DNA of 32,955 nucleotides from Micavibrio sp. (GCA_027047045.1 JALTWL010000314.1:1-32955); one strand, 5' to 3'. Positions 8,321 to 21,303 are shown, numbered from the stretch's first letter. The notes: generated from the letters alone by a model not told the origin. Translations and numbers: made by a program.

Positions 8321-9809
8321 CACTATGTTGTAAATCCAAATCTGAAAATCTTGTATATTCTCCTTGGAAGAACATTTCTATTTTTCCAATAGGTCCATGT
8401 CTTTGTTTTGCAATTATACATTCTGCTTTGTTATAAGCTTCAGACAAGCGATTTTGCCAATTTTCATATCTTTCATTATAGCGTTCTTCGCTTTCATCTG
8501 CTTTGCGGACGGGTTCTTCTCGCTCTAAATAATATTGTTCCCTGTAGAGGAACATAACAACATCTGCATCTTGTTCAATAGAGCCTGATTCTCTAAGGTC
8601 AGACAGTTGAGGTCTTTTATTTTCTCTACTTTCAACTCCACGGCTTAGCTGTGATAGAGCAACAACAGGAACATTTAACTCTTTTGCAATTGCTTTAAGT
8701 CCGCGGGTGATTTCTGATACTTCTTGCACTCTATTGTCACCATGCCTTGAGCTGCCATGTAAAAGCTGTAAATAGTCAACTACAATTAAACCCAAATTTT
8801 CGGTTCTTTTTAATCTTCTAGCACGCGTTCTAACTGCGCTAATACTAAGTGCGGGTGTGTCATCTACAAAAAGTGGCACAGATGATAAAAGCTGGCTTGC
8901 CTCAACGAATTTTTGAAAATCAGTTTCTAACAATTCACCTTTACGAATCTTATCAGATGGCACGCTGGAAATATCGGCTAAAATACGACCTGCTAATTGT
9001 TCCGATGACATTTCAAGTGAAAATATCGCGGCAACAGCGCCTTCTTTGCCATCACTGTGAAGATAGGCTTTTGCCGCATTAAAAGCAATATTGACTCCCA
9101 TTACCGTTTTACCCATAGACGGGCGCCCTGCAACTATTAAAAGGTCAGAATTGTGTAGTCCACCCAACATTCTATCTAAATCTTTAAGACCAGTTGTTAT
9201 ACCTGTAATTTTCCCCTGTCTTTGATAGGCTTTTTCTGCAATTTTAATTGCAGCTGTTAGTGATTTTGAAAATGTAATAAACCCACCCTTTACTTCACCT
9301 TCTTCGGCTAATTGAAAAAGAGATTGTTCAGCATTTTCAATTTGCATTTGAGGGTTTAAATCAATATTTGCGTTAAAAGCATTATCTGCAATAGTTTCCC
9401 CAAGCGCAATTAAAGCACGCCTTAAATGTAAATTATATATAGTGCGTCCATATTCATAAACATTGACAACATTGATAACATTGCGAGCAAGCTCGGTTAA
9501 ATATTCACTGCCCCCGACATGTTCTAAATCTTCATCTTTGGCAAAATATTCTTTTATGGTTACAGGACTTGCCTCTTGCCCTCTATCGATCATTTTTTTT
9601 GTAATATCAAAGATTCTGCCATGAGCAGGATTAAAAAAATGTTCCTGTTTTAAAAAATCGGCTACTTTTTCAATGGCGTTATTATTGACAAGCAAAGCCC
9701 CAAGCAAAGCCTGTTCGGCCTCAATATTATGGGGCATAACTTTATAGTTATCTGTAGCTATATCATTATTGCCGTCAACAGAATCTGTAACTTGTAAATG
9801 TGTCATCAT
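8313..9809 (-). CDS. dnaB: Replicative DNA helicase
   Basis: DnaB is the hexameric 5'-3' helicase of the replication fork. The N-terminal domain begins at MPHNIEAEQALLGALLVNN, and the linker region leads to the RecA-like domain with TGLKDLDRMLGGLHNSDLLIV. Walker A is GRPSMGKT, followed by AAIFSLEMSSEQLAGR, Walker B-like LGLIVVDYLQLL, and the arginine-finger and C-terminal blocks ALSQLSRGVE, DLRESGSIEQDADVVMFLYRE and AKQRHGPIG. No intein interrupts it. Two consecutive ATG codons (9809, 9806) are the plausible starts; an upstream in-frame TTG at 9821 is less likely. It heads the minus-strand run, diverging from the zinc-ribbon gene. Confidence 0.96.
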   Translation of the reverse strand: MMTHLQVTDSVDGNNDIATDNYKVMPHNIEAEQALLGALLVNNNAIEKVADFLKQEHFFNPAHGRIFDITKKMIDRGQEASPVTIKEYFAKDEDLEHVGGSEYLTELARNVINVVNVYEYGRTIYNLHLRRALIALGETIADNAFNANIDLNPQMQIENAEQSLFQLAEEGEVKGGFITFSKSLTAAIKIAEKAYQRQGKITGITTGLKDLDRMLGGLHNSDLLIVAGRPSMGKTVMGVNIAFNAAKAYLHSDGKEGAVAAIFSLEMSSEQLAGRILADISSVPSDKIRKGELLETDFQKFVEASQLLSSVPLFVDDTPALSISAVRTRARRLKRTENLGLIVVDYLQLLHGSSRHGDNRVQEVSEITRGLKAIAKELNVPVVALSQLSRGVESRENKRPQLSDLRESGSIEQDADVVMFLYREQYYLEREEPVRKADESEERYNERYENWQNRLSEAYNKAECIIAKQRHGPIGKIEMFFQGEYTRFSDLDLQHSDE

Positions 9810-9858
9810 GGCAACAGACAATAACAGAATAGAGCCAAAAGCAAAAGTACTAAAGTTA

Positions 9859-9877
9859 GCAAAATATATAATTTTGC
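9859..9877. repeat. Inverted repeat in the dnaB / zinc-ribbon divergent promoter region
   Basis: GCAAAAT and ATTTTGC are perfect 7-base arms around ATATA, located between the two divergent start codons. The position suits an operator. A weak plus-strand promoter, TTGCAT (9874-9879) then 17 bases then TAAGAT (9897-9902), would overlap it. In such AT-rich DNA chance is a real alternative. Confidence 0.35.
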
Positions 9878-9939
9878 ATTTTTATTTTATATACTATAAG
9901 ATAAAATACTATTTTTTCTATTTAATAATGTTGATAATA

Positions 9940-10689
9940 ATGATAGTAAAATGTCCTAAATGCCATACTAAATTTAAAATGCCTGCTGCCGCGATAGGGT
10001 TATCTGGTAAGTTATTACAATGTGGTATATGTCAACATAAGTGGCATAAGCAAGTAACTAATAGTGATATAGAACAAGATAAAGATATTGATAGCGGCGA
10101 TAAGAATAATAGTATTTTTGAAGATAAAACAGATGGTGAAGAAAATACCTATATCGCAAATTATCACTTTGATGAAATAGAAAAAGAACAAACAGGCAGT
10201 TTATCTATAGATAAAAAGTTTGTTGCTATTGTATTTCTTATATTTTTAGTGCTTAGTATTTTATTTGCTATTTTTTCACCAAAAATAATAATTAAAAATT
10301 TCCCTGCAACATATCCTATTTATAAATTTTTAAATATTGAGAAAAATATTTTTGAATATATTCCGACAATAGTTAAATATAAAAAAAATAGTGATGGTGA
10401 GAAAATTTTATATATAGAATTAAAGATAAAAAATATTACAAATAGTAAGCAACAATTTGAACCCTTAAAAATTGCTCTTTACAATAGTGAGGAAAAACTA
10501 TTAAAAGAATGGGAAGTGCCTCCACTAGATGGAAATATTAAAGCGGGCGAGGATAGAATATTAAAATTTGGCTTTAAATCTCCACCCAAAGGAGGACATG
10601 ATATAGTTATTAAAAGAGATATAAAGAAAATTTACAATTTTAGTATAAAAAGAAGTGAGGCTAAAAATAATCCTCATAATATTGATTGA
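9940..10689 (+). CDS. MJ0042-type zinc-ribbon single-pass membrane protein
   Basis: From the ATG at 9940 the 249-residue protein opens with a zinc ribbon, MIVKCPKCHTKFKMP, with cysteines 5, 8, 28 and 31 in two CxxC pairs. An acidic linker follows (41-90), then one membrane helix (about 94-112) and a C-terminal beta-rich domain of the DUF3426/FxLYD kind (about 155-225; LKIKNITNS, FGFKSPP). This architecture is widespread in Alphaproteobacteria; its role is not established to my knowledge. An upstream extension of the frame to 9769 would run into dnaB and lacks family character, so I reject it. It lies 14 bases before cpdR, suggesting co-transcription. Confidence 0.85.
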   Translation: MIVKCPKCHTKFKMPAAAIGLSGKLLQCGICQHKWHKQVTNSDIEQDKDIDSGDKNNSIFEDKTDGEENTYIANYHFDEIEKEQTGSLSIDKKFVAIVFLIFLVLSILFAIFSPKIIIKNFPATYPIYKFLNIEKNIFEYIPTIVKYKKNSDGEKILYIELKIKNITNSKQQFEPLKIALYNSEEKLLKEWEVPPLDGNIKAGEDRILKFGFKSPPKGGHDIVIKRDIKKIYNFSIKRSEAKNNPHNID

Positions 10690-10703
10690 GATATATAGTA
10701 AAT

Positions 10704-11090
10704 ATGACCAAAAGAGATGATTTTGCGGATACAAAAATTTTAATTGTCGATGATGAGCCTGCTGTTAGAGAATTTGTAGAGCGCGCCCTGTCTTATCATG
10801 GCTATCAGGTGGTTGTTGCATCTGATGGTGATAGTGCAATTCGTGCAATGCAAGAAAACGGACATTTTGATTTGCTGCTAACCGATATTGTTATGCCTGA
10901 TATGGACGGTATATCTTTGGCTTTAAAGACAGCGGGCGATTTTCCAAATACAAAAATTATGATGATGAGCGGATATACTCAACAGCGTGAAAGAGCCTAT
11001 AACCTAGAGGCTTTGGTGGTTGATATAATAGAAAAGCCCTTTACGATTGAAGGACTTTGTAAAAGTGTTGATACAGCTCTTAGGGCTTAA
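10704..11090 (+). CDS. cpdR: Single-domain response regulator, CpdR type
   Basis: The protein is a 128-residue stand-alone receiver with no output domain. It has acidic residues D16, D17 and E18 (VDDEPAVREFV), phospho-acceptor D61 (LLLTDIVMPDMDGI), a serine/threonine switch in MMMSGYTQQRERA, and K111 (IEKPFT). The IVMPDMDGI to GYTQQRERA to KPFT pattern closely resembles CpdR. In Caulobacter, unphosphorylated CpdR delivers substrates to ClpXP, and CckA-ChpT controls its phosphorylation. ATG 10704 is preferred over the TTG six codons upstream. A CckA-like hybrid kinase lies about 9 kb downstream in this window. The CpdR name rests on motif similarity. Confidence 0.8.
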   Translation: MTKRDDFADTKILIVDDEPAVREFVERALSYHGYQVVVASDGDSAIRAMQENGHFDLLLTDIVMPDMDGISLALKTAGDFPNTKIMMMSGYTQQRERAYNLEALVVDIIEKPFTIEGLCKSVDTALRA

Positions 11091-15909: not shown

Positions 15910-16461
15910 TTATTTTCTTGGGCTTGGAGTTTTAGGTGCGGATTTAATACTCGCACTTATACCGGCTTTGGGAGTATTTGGTTTAGGCGCATTTGTTGGC
16001 GATTTCGGTTGTATTCCATTTTTTACTGCGCAACTTACCCCAGTTGCAATATTTTTTATGTTGCCGTTAAGCGGTTGAACAGTACCCTTAGATATACCGA
16101 CCCTCTTATCAGCAGGTTTGGTTTTTTTATCATTATCTGGGTCGCCAAAAATCCTACAAAGAAGATTATAAGTATCAATCTTAGCCCTTGCATAGAGATA
16201 TGCCCGCCTTGGGTCTTTGCTTTGTATCCCAGCATAAAGTCTATCACCCCTTAAAAGATTTTGCTCTTTTTGATACTGCTTTAATGTTTTACCTTGTTTT
16301 TCTGCCTCTAAGCGATCTTCTGCTTCTTGCTCTGCCTTTTTACGTCTGTAAATAGCCTCAACATCTAGCTCTTCATCATCACCTCCACTTGGTTTATCGC
16401 CACTAGCATTTGCATGAATATCTAGATTTTTTACTTCTTCTTCTTGTTTATCTTTGTCCAT
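15910..16461 (-). CDS. Unrecognised hydrophilic protein with acidic N-terminus and Pro/Lys-rich tail
   Basis: The 183-residue protein has no family I recognise. The first 45 residues are acidic and polar, and residues about 45-75 are a charged predicted coiled coil (AIYRRKKAEQEAEDRLEAEK). The middle (75-110) is the only part that looks folded (SKDPRRAYLYARAKIDTYNLLCRIFGD). The last 50 residues are low-complexity Pro/Lys/Ser (PTNAPKPNTPKAG, SAPKTPSPRK). It has no signal peptide or membrane helix. It follows the 126-residue unknown gene by 29 bases on the same strand, so the two probably form a pair. GGAG lies about 12 bases before the ATG. Confidence 0.6.
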   Translation of the reverse strand: MDKDKQEEEVKNLDIHANASGDKPSGGDDEELDVEAIYRRKKAEQEAEDRLEAEKQGKTLKQYQKEQNLLRGDRLYAGIQSKDPRRAYLYARAKIDTYNLLCRIFGDPDNDKKTKPADKRVGISKGTVQPLNGNIKNIATGVSCAVKNGIQPKSPTNAPKPNTPKAGISASIKSAPKTPSPRK

Positions 16462-16490: not shown

Positions 16491-16871
16491 CTAAATATTT
16501 GTTAAACAAACAGGTACTTCATACAATTTCTCACTCCCACCATCATTTACATGAGCAAAATAAGTAACCGCCTCCCTTTTCCATATGTCCATATTAACAG
16601 ATTCGATCGGATATTGCAACTCAATTCCCGCTGTCCCAAAATCCCCCCCCACAATGCTTAACAAAGATGTATTTAGATTTACAATTATAACATCAGGGGG
16701 GCTAGTAAAATTATAGTCACACAAAATAATTGTTTTGCCATTATCAGTTTTAGCTAAAATTGCATTTACATCTTCTATATCAATTTTTATATCTTTAGGT
16801 AAAGGAGTAATATCTGTAGCGTCAGATATATTTTTCCTAATCATAAAATTACTGCTAGTATCGTTTTTCAT
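16491..16871 (-). CDS. Unrecognised 126-residue protein
   Basis: I do not recognise this protein. It is cytoplasmic in character, with no signal peptide or membrane segment, and looks beta-rich from about residue 25 on (TIILCDYNF, DVIIVNLNTSLLSIVGGDFG). It contains two cysteines, one near the C-terminus (PVCLTNI). The start ATG at 16871 has a good AGGGAA ribosome-binding element. It is divergent from the kinase/phosphatase fusion gene, sharing a 118-base promoter region, and is followed by the other unknown gene. The location suggests, but does not show, a link with the signalling cluster. Confidence 0.55.
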   Translation of the reverse strand: MKNDTSSNFMIRKNISDATDITPLPKDIKIDIEDVNAILAKTDNGKTIILCDYNFTSPPDVIIVNLNTSLLSIVGGDFGTAGIELQYPIESVNMDIWKREAVTYFAHVNDGGSEKLYEVPVCLTNI

Positions 16872-16989
16872 CGTAATTTCCCTATATTTTAAGTAAATGC
16901 TATCACAATAAAGTTAATACATTCTTTACCTTAAACTGCCACAATCTAAAGATGTGTATTTTAAAGTATAACTAAGAGTGAATAAAATT

Positions 16990-18681
16990 ATGCAAGAACA
17001 GCAAGAAAATTCCCTAACTTCCCCCGATGAAAATATAAATGATGAAATTATACTATGGCTTTGTTTTGAAAAACTATCTTTGAGAGATTTGCCCAAAATT
17101 AGAAAATCAATTCAAAATTCTATCAATGATGTGCTAGAATTAGAACAAAAATATATCGATGCTTTTATGCTTGCTGTTACTGAAATTTTATCTAACTTAA
17201 TAAAATATGGTAAAGAAAACATATCTTACATAAGCATAACACTTTATACAAAAGAAATAGACAGTAAAAAATCTTTGATATTAAAAGTAAGTGATAATGG
17301 CGATGAAATCGCTGATTTTAGTGTTAAATATAATTCTTCATGCCACAAAGTGCAAAATAAAATTATACATGAAGATGAAAATGACCACGGACGTGGAATA
17401 GGAATAATTGATAACATAATGGATAATTTACTTTACATATCAAATATAGATAGCAAAGATAACTTAAACCATATAATTGTAGAAAAATATCTAGACAGAT
17501 TGCCTAAAAATATAAAAAAACAACCAAATTCTCAAAAAATAGATAAAAAACAACATAAGATATTTATAATAGATGACGATAATATTTTGTGTAAAATGCT
17601 AGATTCATTACTATCCAAATATTACAACACAAAAGTCTTTTCCTCAGCGCTAGATGCGCTTGACAAGTTTGAACAAGAACAGCCAGACTTAATATTGTCA
17701 GATTTACTTATGCCAGAAATGAACGGCGCTGAGTTGCGTGAGGCTTTATCTGAGAAAAAAAATGGTGATATTACTCCTTTTATCTTTTTAAGCGGTCACC
17801 CAGAGGAAGCAAAAAAAGAATATGTAAGTAAACTGGGAATTGATGGTTTTTTGAATAAATCAATAGATAAAAAAGAACTACTTGCAACTATTAAAAGAAC
17901 TATTAGACGTTCTCAACAACTACGTAACAATATACCAGAACAAATAGCATCAGATATTAGCAACGCTCTAAAACCCAAAGCGCCGCCCAATAGCAAATAT
18001 TGGAAATTCGCTATAAAGTCAGAAATTGCCGATACTGGTGGTGGAGATATGTTGCTATATTATCCAACCAATGATGGTATCATGATAGTCTTTGCGGATG
18101 TTATGGGACATGGTATTGCAGCAAAATTTTTCGCTTACGCCTATATGGGATATTTAAGAAGTATAATTAGAACATCTATAAAAAACTCAATAGAGCCTGC
18201 ATCTTTATTAAATGAAGTCTCAAGAAATATATATGAAGATGAATTTTTAGATGATTGTATTTTCACATGCCAAGTAGTATTATTACAAAATGACGGTATA
18301 TTAAAAGTATCTTCTGCTGGACACCCGCTACCGATAATTGCAAATCCAGACGGTCAGTGTGATTTTTTAGAAATATCAGGAACATTACCTGGAATGTTGC
18401 CAAATACACGTTACCACCAAGAAATATATGAAATGTCAAATAATGATAGGTTAATATTATATACAGATGGGATAATTGAAAATATATCTCGCCAAAATCC
18501 TGAAAAAGCTCAAAATATATTAAGTAAAAATATACAAAAGTATAGTATCATGGAATTATCAGTTGAAAAACTATTAAGGCAAATTTGGAAAACACAAATA
18601 GAAAATTTCTCAAACGGCTTTAATGATGATACAACTATACTAGCAATTGAATATAACAATGTAATTTGCACAGGAAAATAA
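16990..18681 (+). CDS. RsbW-like kinase / receiver / SpoIIE-type PP2C phosphatase fusion
   Basis: The 563-residue cytosolic protein joins three signalling domains. Residues about 25-170 are a GHKL (HATPase_c_2) anti-sigma-type kinase: N-box TEILSNLIKYG with E65 and N69, G1 SDNGDE (D102), G2 GRGIGII (134-140). Residues about 188-305 are a receiver with D195-D197, phospho-acceptor D238 (LILSDLLMPEMNG), S268 and K290. Residues about 335-555 are a SpoIIE/PP2C phosphatase with metal-binding GGD (351-353), ADVMGHG (369-375), SSAGHP, LYTDGIIE (D493) and FNDDTTI (D546/D547). All key residues look intact. It is two bases from the STAS gene, its likely substrate. I choose ATG 16990 over the GTG at 16978. 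Whether the HATPase module phosphorylates the STAS protein or binds a sigma factor is inference. Confidence 0.9.
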   Translation: MQEQQENSLTSPDENINDEIILWLCFEKLSLRDLPKIRKSIQNSINDVLELEQKYIDAFMLAVTEILSNLIKYGKENISYISITLYTKEIDSKKSLILKVSDNGDEIADFSVKYNSSCHKVQNKIIHEDENDHGRGIGIIDNIMDNLLYISNIDSKDNLNHIIVEKYLDRLPKNIKKQPNSQKIDKKQHKIFIIDDDNILCKMLDSLLSKYYNTKVFSSALDALDKFEQEQPDLILSDLLMPEMNGAELREALSEKKNGDITPFIFLSGHPEEAKKEYVSKLGIDGFLNKSIDKKELLATIKRTIRRSQQLRNNIPEQIASDISNALKPKAPPNSKYWKFAIKSEIADTGGGDMLLYYPTNDGIMIVFADVMGHGIAAKFFAYAYMGYLRSIIRTSIKNSIEPASLLNEVSRNIYEDEFLDDCIFTCQVVLLQNDGILKVSSAGHPLPIIANPDGQCDFLEISGTLPGMLPNTRYHQEIYEMSNNDRLILYTDGIIENISRQNPEKAQNILSKNIQKYSIMELSVEKLLRQIWKTQIENFSNGFNDDTTILAIEYNNVICTGK

Positions 18682-18683
18682 AA

Positions 18684-19040
18684 ATGGTGTTAGAACAAAA
18701 ATATACTGAACTTGACAATAAATTGGTAAATATATCTAAATGTAATCAATTCATAGTAATTACTTTTCTAAATGATATAGATGCATTTGTTGTATCAGAG
18801 GTTAAAAATAACATAAAACAAATAGTAAAAAATGACAATGGTCAGCGCAATGTGATGATAGATTTAGCAAAAATAGAATTTATTGATAGCTATGCAGTTG
18901 GGCTTTTTGTTTCTTTATTAAAAATTCTACATAAAAATAACAAAAAACTAATATTTGCAGGGGCAAGCGGGCAGCCACAATCTATATTAAATATTGTGGG
19001 GCTTAATGAAGATGTTGTTTCTTTCATTGATAATATTTAA
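18684..19040 (+). CDS. STAS-domain anti-sigma factor antagonist
   Basis: This 118-residue single STAS domain is of the RsbV/SpoIIAA type. The core is present: VITFLNDIDAFVVSEVKNNI, then VMIDLAKIEFIDSYAVGLFVSLLKIL. The phospho-acceptor serine position is kept (S69, after D68), but the usual DSSG or DSTG is DSYAVG. In partner switching the unphosphorylated form frees a target by binding the kinase; SpoIIE-type phosphatases reactivate it. Only two bases separate it from the fusion gene upstream, so the pair is almost certainly a co-translated cognate set. ATG 18684 is preferred over a TTG that would overlap the upstream gene. Confidence 0.9.
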   Translation: MVLEQKYTELDNKLVNISKCNQFIVITFLNDIDAFVVSEVKNNIKQIVKNDNGQRNVMIDLAKIEFIDSYAVGLFVSLLKILHKNNKKLIFAGASGQPQSILNIVGLNEDVVSFIDNI

Positions 19041-19138
19041 ATAAAAATATTTTAAATTATATTTAAATTATATTTATTTTTTTAAATACAACCTATACGA
19101 TATATTTATGAAGTAATAATTTAGTAAAGGATAATAAA

Positions 19139-19798
19139 ATGAATATTTTAATTGCAGATGACCACACTTTATTTAGGGAAATGTGTACTGAATATATTGC
19201 CAGAAAACGTCCTGAGGCAAAAATTTTATCTAGTAAGAATTTTGCTGATGCTTGTGAGATTATGGCCAATAATAAGGATAATATATCACTAATAATATTA
19301 GATTTATGCATGCCTGGTATGAACGGTACTGAAGGTGTTAAAATTATGCATGAAAAATATCCTAAAATTCCAATTGCTGTTATATCTGGGGTGGCAAAAC
19401 AACGTGATGTTGATGCTTGTATAGAGGCAGGGGCAAGGGGTTTTTTTCCAAAAACATTATCAGGAATGGCGCTAATAAGCGCAATTGAGCTTGTAATTAG
19501 TGGAGAAAAATTTATTCCTGTTGACTATGAAGAACCACCAGAATTGATACATGCCCAAATGTCTAATAATAAAAATTTAGATGAAAATCTAAAAGCAATT
19601 GGAATTTATTTAACAAAACGTGAAAAAGAAATACTTAGCTTTCTGGTGCGTGGCTGTTCTAACCAAGAAATAGCTGATAGTTTAGGTCTGCAATTAGTAA
19701 CTATAAAGCTACATGTTAGAAGTACTTGTCAAAAATTAGGTGTTAAAAATAGAACACAAGCAGCCCTCAAGGCAAAAGAGCTTGGGGTGGGGTTGTAA
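19139..19798 (+). CDS. LuxR/NarL-family response regulator
   Basis: The 219-residue protein has an N-terminal receiver (1-122; D7, D8, phospho-acceptor D55 in LIILDLCMPGMNG, S83, K105). Its C-terminal LuxR-type helix-turn-helix (about 157-214) reads LTKREKEILSFLVRGCSNQEIADSLG, then VTIKLHVRSTCQKLGVKNRTQAA. It should be a DNA-binding transcription factor activated by phosphorylation. An AAAGGA ribosome-binding site lies seven bases before the ATG. It is separated from the STAS gene by about 100 AT-rich bases and precedes the hybrid kinase by 32 bases, so that kinase is the obvious candidate partner. Targets are unknown. Confidence 0.93.
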   Translation: MNILIADDHTLFREMCTEYIARKRPEAKILSSKNFADACEIMANNKDNISLIILDLCMPGMNGTEGVKIMHEKYPKIPIAVISGVAKQRDVDACIEAGARGFFPKTLSGMALISAIELVISGEKFIPVDYEEPPELIHAQMSNNKNLDENLKAIGIYLTKREKEILSFLVRGCSNQEIADSLGLQLVTIKLHVRSTCQKLGVKNRTQAALKAKELGVGL

Positions 19799-19830
19799 AT
19801 GACTAACCAATACTGAAAATTAAAATAGCT

Positions 19831-21303
19831 ATGAAATACAAAAGCCAAGAACAAGAAATAAAAAAAATTAGAACGCTTGCTGTAATTTCTGCCTTTTTCA
19901 TGGTAATTATATTTATATTGCTAGTCACATATAAACAAGACAGTTTACTTAGTAATTTTTCTACCAAAAATAAAGATATAATATTAATGTTAGCCATGCT
20001 AATACCAATTGGCTTTATATTAAAATTACTATATGACAAAACTAAAGAAGCGGCTGAGCTAAGAGAACAATTTTACCAATCACAAAAAATGGAGGCAATT
20101 GGAAGACTTGCAGGCGGTATTGCACATGATTTTAATAATATTTTGGCCTCAAGCACTGGTTATGCAGAATTTTTAGTGGAAGATTTAGCAGATATTGACC
20201 CAAAATTACAAAATTTTGCCAAACAAATATTACTAGCCAACAAACAAGCGCAAAAATTGGTTGAACAAATACTTAGCTTTAGCAGAAAACAAGAAAATAT
20301 AGATATGAGCTATATTGATTTAAAAGAAGCTATACCCGAAATGTTAGAGTTACTCAAATCAAGAATAAAACAAGGAATAGAGCTTAAATCAGAAATAGTA
20401 AGCAAACCCGTAATTGTAAAAGCTAACCACAGTTTATTACATCAAATAATTATGAATTTATGCGTAAATGCAGTTGATGCTATGATACCAAACAAAAAGG
20501 GAATATTACAAGTCACTGTTGTAATTGATAAAATACCAGAAGATATTAAAAATATTCTAAATTTAAAGTCTAAGGAAAATTTTATAAATAAATTGATAAA
20601 TAAAGTAAATCAAAATTATTTAATAAATGGCAATATTAACACAAAGACGCTATATGCAATAATTACAATAAAAGATAATGGTTCTGGAATTGAAAAAGAG
20701 ATTTTAAAACAAATATTTGACCCTTTTTTTACAACCAAAGGCACAAATAAAGGCACAGGGCTTGGGCTGTCTTCTGCCTTGAATATAGTAGAAATGCACA
20801 AAGGCTCAATAATTGTTAAAACAAAAGAAAATATTGGAACAGAATTTATGATATTTCTACCAATTGAGAAAAATCACCATATATATAAAGACGCAAATAA
20901 CCAAAATAACCAAAATATTGAGAAAAATAAACAAAGTCAGCAAAAATATATTTTACTAATTGAAGATGATATATCTGTTGCTGGTACCATGGAAATAATG
21001 CTTGAAAGAATGGGGTACGAAAGTTTGCACTGTCTAAATCCACTAGAGGCAATTGATCTTTTAGATGCAGGCGAAAAATTTGACCTGATAATTTCAGATT
21101 ATAAAATGCCACATATGACAGGTTTAGAAATGGCAAAAAATCTATATAAAAAATATCCTAAACTTAAAATTATTATGACAACTGGCTTTAGTGATAAAAA
21201 AATTGGCACACAGCTAAAAAATACTGCTATTACTACAATTCTAAAAAAACCTGCTAATCAAGATGAAATTAAAAAAGCCATAAATGAGGCTTTTAAGGAA
21301 TAA
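19831..21303 (+). CDS. Membrane hybrid histidine kinase, CckA-like
   Basis: The 490-residue protein has two N-terminal membrane helices (about 14-34 and 49-66) with only a short loop between them, then a coiled coil. The dimerisation domain carries H-box QKMEAIGRLAGGIAHDFNN (H99). The ATPase domain has N-box LHQIIMNLCVNAVDAM, G1 IKDNGSGIE, F-box FDPFFTTK and G2 GTGLGLSSALNIV. A C-terminal receiver (about 370-490) carries phospho-acceptor D423 (LIISDYKMPHMTG). The H-box and kinase-receiver layout resemble CckA, but the PAS domains of classical CckA are absent. The tiny periplasmic loop suggests sensing in or near the membrane. It lies 32 bases after the LuxR-type regulator. CckA orthology is unproven. 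Confidence 0.9.
   Translation: MKYKSQEQEIKKIRTLAVISAFFMVIIFILLVTYKQDSLLSNFSTKNKDIILMLAMLIPIGFILKLLYDKTKEAAELREQFYQSQKMEAIGRLAGGIAHDFNNILASSTGYAEFLVEDLADIDPKLQNFAKQILLANKQAQKLVEQILSFSRKQENIDMSYIDLKEAIPEMLELLKSRIKQGIELKSEIVSKPVIVKANHSLLHQIIMNLCVNAVDAMIPNKKGILQVTVVIDKIPEDIKNILNLKSKENFINKLINKVNQNYLINGNINTKTLYAIITIKDNGSGIEKEILKQIFDPFFTTKGTNKGTGLGLSSALNIVEMHKGSIIVKTKENIGTEFMIFLPIEKNHHIYKDANNQNNQNIEKNKQSQQKYILLIEDDISVAGTMEIMLERMGYESLHCLNPLEAIDLLDAGEKFDLIISDYKMPHMTGLEMAKNLYKKYPKLKIIMTTGFSDKKIGTQLKNTAITTILKKPANQDEIKKAINEAFKE

Follow-up and report, generated by a model that had tools for sequence, protein, structure and literature searches.

The four genes at positions 16990-21303 of the window, i.e., the whole stretch of 32,955 nucleotides from Micavibrio sp. 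that was analyzed (GCA_027047045.1 JALTWL010000314.1:1-32955), are a real and new arrangement of familiar parts and not a new type of system. They probably encode a serine phosphorylation switch of the SypE/SypA type together with a separate two-component pair. The joining of serine and histidine/aspartate phosphorylation chemistries is already known from the syp system. What is new is that the genes are adjacent, that the partner is of LuxR type, that polysaccharide genes are lacking and that both gene pairs can occupy the same slot in relatives. Because the two pairs are almost always apart in the order and are joined in one genus, nature offers here a case for testing how two-component pairs and partner switches come to be connected.

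Genes, Domains and Residues of the Cluster

Four consecutive genes were found on the same strand, all with the originally predicted domains (Pfam) and with the expected catalytic residues:

16990..18681, + strand, fusion of HATPase_c_2, REC and SpoIIE (PP2C) domains, 563 aa from the ATG (Pfam)
18684..19040, + strand, STAS-domain protein, 118 aa (Pfam)
19139..19798, + strand, NarL/LuxR-type response regulator (REC-GerE), 219 aa (Pfam)
19831..21303, + strand, hybrid histidine kinase (HisKA-HATPase_c-REC), 490 aa (Pfam)

The N-terminal domain of the fusion is an RsbW/SpoIIAB-like kinase (HATPase_c_2, Pfam, 1.3e-9), followed by the REC (1.3e-21) and SpoIIE (1.3e-31) domains, and the STAS protein matched STAS at 1.2e-12. 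The fusion contains the kinase residues E65/N69 of the N-box and D102 of G1, the receiver residues D195/D196/D238/S268/K290 and the PP2C residues D353/D370/D493/D546/D547, and its active-site residues were invariant in an alignment across 10-12 relatives. The predicted phospho-acceptor of the STAS protein is Ser69, which is located in a D-S motif (FIDS69YA). D55/K105 are present in the LuxR-type regulator, as are H99, N213 and D282 in the hybrid kinase and D423/K473 in its receiver. The N-terminus of this kinase has two hydrophobic stretches, judged by eye from the sequence, and neither a PAS nor an Hpt domain was detected in it with Pfam.

For the fusion, the ATG at 16990 that had originally been given is more likely the start than the GTG at 16978, from which the protein would have 567 aa. 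The STAS protein most likely starts from the ATG at 18684, which lies 2 nt past the fusion stop with AGGA upstream; a TTG-start form (18666-19040) was listed by the ORF caller. The STAS and LuxR genes are separated by 98 bp in the window, and a separate promoter could lie within this gap. A scan for terminators stayed near background.

In the AlphaFold2 model of the fusion (mean pLDDT of 79, pTM of 0.48), three folded domains were found, and a long helix (residues 294-326) joins the REC domain to the phosphatase. Its best matches in the PDB were RssB of P. aeruginosa, Rv1364c in its RsbU-RsbW portion, and SpoIIE/PP2C phosphatases; phmmer found no PDB match for the HATPase segment alone. The STAS protein matched the profiles of SpoIIAA, RsbV-type and other anti-sigma-factor-antagonist structures.

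The genes next to the cluster in the window are dxr, rseP, trmD and one resembling a Fe/Mn superoxide dismutase gene. The cluster has no adjoining polysaccharide export gene in the window, and no sypB/C/D-like locus was found there.

Conservation in the Second Species of the Genus

Besides the window genome, our search included a single member of the genus, G006, which carries all four genes in unchanged order (51, 43, 61, and 51% identity for the fusion, STAS protein, LuxR-type regulator and kinase, respectively), followed by sodB- and trmD-like genes as in the window. This conservation of gene order and of sodB and trmD argues that the cluster is not a chance arrangement. The gaps among the four genes of G006 are 0-16 nt, including 12 nt between the STAS and LuxR genes and 0 nt between the LuxR and kinase genes, which suggests that they form one operon. 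The window genome, an alphaproteobacterial assembly of 2.17 Mb in 342 contigs (labeled G000), has an estimated contamination of 5%; at the cluster, the synteny with G006 argues against a contaminant contig.

Upstream of the fusion are two divergent genes of families without Pfam/NCBIfam match:

16491..16871, - strand, divergent 126-aa gene, conserved beside the fusion in G006
15910..16461, - strand, 183-aa gene next to the 126-aa gene, with a G006 counterpart of 29% identity

In G006, a leuD-like gene is inserted between the 126-aa gene and the fusion. The 126-aa protein, whose model is uninformative at a pLDDT of 56 and of too low confidence for a structure search, may possibly be a neighbor of the signaling system.

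Two Separable Gene Pairs in the Order

The survey covered 142 genomes of the order, which was taken as Micavibrionales; many are fragmented, and divergent copies may be missed at the match thresholds of 1e-25 for the fusion and 1e-22 for the LuxR-type regulator. Fusion-type matches were found in 17 of the 142 genomes, 14 of them of the SypE-like kind (i.e., G000, G006, G007 and eleven genomes of family f6). The remaining matches, in G079, G089 and G091, were of other kinds: that of G079 adjoins polysaccharide export genes, and in G089 and G091 the kinase and the REC-phosphatase are separate genes. The STAS gene directly follows the fusion, with the D-S motif intact, at all 13 loci that could be read (the window and 12 relatives). 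This adjacency and the invariant phospho-serine motif support the original assignment of the STAS protein as the probable substrate of the fusion.

Conservation of the four genes in related genomes, which had been proposed as a check, was found in part: the four-gene order is present in G000 and G006 only, and elsewhere among the 142 genomes the cluster splits into pairs. The fusion and STAS genes occur without the LuxR gene in 12 of the 14 genomes with a SypE-like fusion. LuxR matches, found in 85 of the 142 genomes, are in 83 cases without a SypE-like fusion and usually with a kinase, so that the original pairing of the regulator with the kinase is conserved in relatives. The association between the fusion and the LuxR-type regulator is negative (Fisher p = 0.0003, with genomes treated as independent and confounded by phylogeny). 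Thus, fusion-STAS and LuxR-kinase are separable modules. As 12 of the 14 fusion genomes have no LuxR match, co-occurrence does not support signaling from the kinase to the receiver of the fusion, and these counts together weaken what had been the central link of the original prediction.

In relatives, an SLT lytic transglycosylase gene immediately preceded the LuxR gene at each of 20 inspected loci, and the LuxR gene was followed by a hybrid kinase gene at 14, by a truncated kinase gene at 1 and by no kinase gene at 5. In the f6 genome G126, the fusion-STAS pair is located behind SLT and ahead of BatA/DUF4159 and DUF58 genes, and genes of the same sizes are found in the corresponding positions of G123, G136 and G138, with the SLT identity Pfam-tested in G126 and G007 only. 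In G007, SLT and the fusion are separated by an alpha/beta-hydrolase gene. The genes that follow in G132 and G134 are of BatA-type size, and SLT was not seen directly upstream; in G000 and G006 the SLT genes are on other contigs than the cluster. The same slot in relatives, downstream of SLT and beside BatA/DUF58, can hold either pair, and this shared slot behind a lytic transglycosylase gene makes the cell envelope a place to look.

In the fusion tree, the window and G006 sequences fall within a 13-row clade of the order with a support of 100/100. In the kinase tree, for which long-branch warnings were given, the window kinase branches together with kinases that neighbor LuxR genes in relatives (99/98), and nine CckA rows form a clade (100/99) without it. 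Both trees are consistent with the genes having been inherited within the order. The joint cluster may either have arisen late in the genus, by joining of the pairs, or be what is left of a larger ancestral unit.

Some of the LuxR-partner kinases in relatives are reduced. That of G048 (L146:5976-6665(-)) consists of HisKA-REC only, with the ATPase domain lost, and in G089 and G091 (L096:7601-7849(-) and L097:8003-8239(+)) an ORF of 78-82 aa keeps only the His-containing helix motif HDCYN. The latter ORFs are possibly stand-alone phosphotransfer proteins. In addition, in G091 (L048; 2279-3815, 4005-7853) separate HATPase_c_2 and REC-SpoIIE genes directly precede flagellin, FliD and an ORF with a match to sigma-70 region 2; this gene set is a possible flagellar partner switch.

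Comparison with Known Systems

In V. fischeri, SypE phosphorylates SypA via its N-terminal kinase, is reported to dephosphorylate SypA when its receiver is presumably phosphorylated, and acts on SypA downstream of syp transcription (PMC3610818). SypF reportedly passes its signal on to SypG as well as to SypE (PMC12369376). Like the window fusion, SypE and an Aliivibrio homologue have the order RsbW-like kinase, REC and PP2C, and N69 and D238 of the window fusion are invariant in the alignment with the Aliivibrio homologues. SypA, like the window STAS protein, is a small STAS protein with a phospho-serine (predicted here to be Ser69), and in both cases the locus also encodes a response regulator and a hybrid kinase. 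Re-reading of Vibrionaceae loci revealed STAS, fusion, hybrid kinase and sigma-54-type regulator genes together. The fusion and STAS genes are, however, separated by sypB-D in the syp loci of Vibrionaceae and adjacent in the window. The syp regulator is sigma-54-dependent and that of the window is of LuxR type (GerE); the syp hybrid kinase has an Hpt domain, which the window kinase lacks; and syp is a polysaccharide locus, whereas no polysaccharide genes adjoin the window cluster. Compared with SypE, the window fusion belongs to its own strongly supported clade with members of the order.

The search of named records depended on two peptide patterns and covered the best 80 of 273 matches. Among the matches listed, SypE-like proteins of Vibrionaceae were among the best outside the order, and in several other Alphaproteobacteria fusions of the SypE type adjoin polysaccharide or glycosyltransferase genes. 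On large plasmids of Plesiomonas shigelloides (L018 and L019), genes for exopolysaccharide likewise form a cluster that includes a STAS gene and a fusion of the SypE type.

HsbR of Pseudomonas and CrsR of Shewanella are REC-PP2C-kinase proteins that bind RpoS, and Pseudomonas HsbR is fed by hybrid kinases through Hpt (PMC6482189). HsbR-HsbA and CrsR-CrsA resemble the window pair in that a single protein with a STAS partner carries kinase/anti-sigma, PP2C and REC domains. They differ in domain order, which is kinase-REC-PP2C in the window fusion, and their output runs via RpoS, FlgM or HsbD. Rhodobacter, also an alphaproteobacterium, has the partner switch RbaV/RbaW/RbaY, whose phosphatase is of REC-PP2C type (PMC3999984); there the kinase and phosphatase are separate proteins rather than fused as in the window. 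Given the Rhodobacter system, SypE/SypA/SypF/SypG of Vibrio and the similar fusions in several other Alphaproteobacteria, the novelty originally seen for this class was overstated.

The LuxR-type regulator and kinase of the window are relatives, by sequence and pairing, of the SLT-linked pair of the order. The latter is directly downstream of SLT, while the window pair is beside fusion-STAS and away from SLT; in addition, the G079 kinase of the SLT-linked type has a PAS domain, which is absent from the window kinase. The window kinase shares the HisKA-HATPase-REC core with CckA and matches the NCBIfam CckA models below their cut-offs. It was rejected as the CckA of its genome because it falls outside the CckA clade and a separate, longer CckA-like kinase is encoded at G000:C130.

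Proposed Mechanism and Alternatives

That the fusion acts on the STAS protein is well supported by domain architecture, active-site residues and the SypE precedent: the N-terminal kinase would phosphorylate Ser69, and the C-terminal SpoIIE domain would remove the phosphate. Phosphorylation of the fusion receiver at D238 would tip this balance, probably toward the phosphatase as reported for SypE. From their conserved pairing in relatives, the hybrid kinase and the LuxR-type regulator would form a two-component pair that alters transcription, with phosphotransfer from the former to the latter being likely. As both pairs are in one probable operon in the genus, they would be co-expressed. Signaling from the kinase to the fusion receiver in this genus, directly or via an Hpt protein such as a ChpT-like one, is possible, although we would not expect it on balance. 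With a receiver and no Hpt domain, the kinase would either need a further protein for a relay or phosphorylate its targets directly. A ChpT-like HPTransfase is encoded in the genome, and its service in such a relay is speculation. Unphosphorylated STAS protein would bind a target for which a sigma factor encoded in the vicinity is an improbable candidate; by analogy with SypA, a non-sigma target is predicted to be more likely.

One alternative is a single integrated syp-like pathway, in which the hybrid kinase controls both receivers, that of the LuxR-type regulator to set transcription and that of the fusion to set STAS phosphorylation. The four genes would then be an undivided control unit that was split or lost in other lineages. 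The four-gene order held in two species despite only about half of the residues being conserved, the SypF-SypG/SypE precedent and the shared SLT/BatA/DUF58 slot, explicable by an ancestral SLT-fusion-STAS-LuxR-kinase order and reciprocal losses, make this reading a candidate to keep in mind. We nevertheless hold it only tentatively: among the 142 genomes only those of the genus were found to combine all four genes, the pairs stand alone elsewhere and so neither needs the other, and the slot may also have received two insertions independently. The same separability and the negative association between the pairs across the order, together with the 98-bp gap between the STAS and LuxR genes, would fit two unrelated neighbors that came to share a locus by accidental rearrangement, with independent inputs and outputs. 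Such an accident seems rather unlikely to us, in that G006 keeps the order with short STAS-LuxR and LuxR-kinase gaps that suggest co-transcription.

The output could also be that of a classical partner switch, the HATPase domain of the fusion holding RpoD or one of the two ECF factors until unphosphorylated STAS protein frees it, as might be expected from the binding of RpoS by HsbR and CrsR and from a genome with RpoD and two ECF-size genes in which NepR was not detected. We consider this improbable, since each ECF gene has an adjacent downstream gene of its own, the cluster has no adjoining sigma factor gene in either the window or G006, the window genome showed no RpoS-size factor, and SypE, with the same architecture, acts on SypA downstream of transcription. 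More improbable again is that the cluster is an undivided envelope-control unit, originally behind SLT and beside BatA/DUF58, of which other families kept one half, with the kinase driving both the LuxR-type regulator and the serine/STAS switch and with the STAS output directed at cell-wall or envelope remodeling rather than at a sigma factor. We prefer a SypE/SypA-type switch co-encoded with a separate two-component pair.

Other Signaling Genes of the Genome

The fusion is the only SpoIIE protein of the genome, the cluster STAS protein its only STAS match, and the kinase domain of the fusion its only HATPase_c_2 domain above the curated cut-off, so that no competing partner was found. The output of a SypE/SypA-type switch could hence be studied here without paralogues.

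The Pfam search for sigma-70 region 2 matched RpoD and the two ECF-size genes, and no RpoH-size factor was found by it in this fragmented assembly. The absence of a sigma factor gene from the four-gene cluster agrees with the original observation that none is nearby; with none adjacent and with the ECF genes having neighbors of their own, a sigma factor was rejected as a linked partner. Nor was a NepR-based stress response (PhyR-NepR-EcfG) detected: NepR (PF18557) had no match in 17 genomes of the order, with a positive Caulobacter control, although a very short, divergent copy could escape this search. The contrast that had been drawn with PhyR-NepR-EcfG is thus not directly applicable.

Elsewhere in the window, a zinc-ribbon protein gene (9769-10689(+)) overlaps a gene for a single-domain receiver protein (10686-11090(+)), and this gene pair (9769-11090) is located upstream of an undecaprenyl diphosphate synthase gene.
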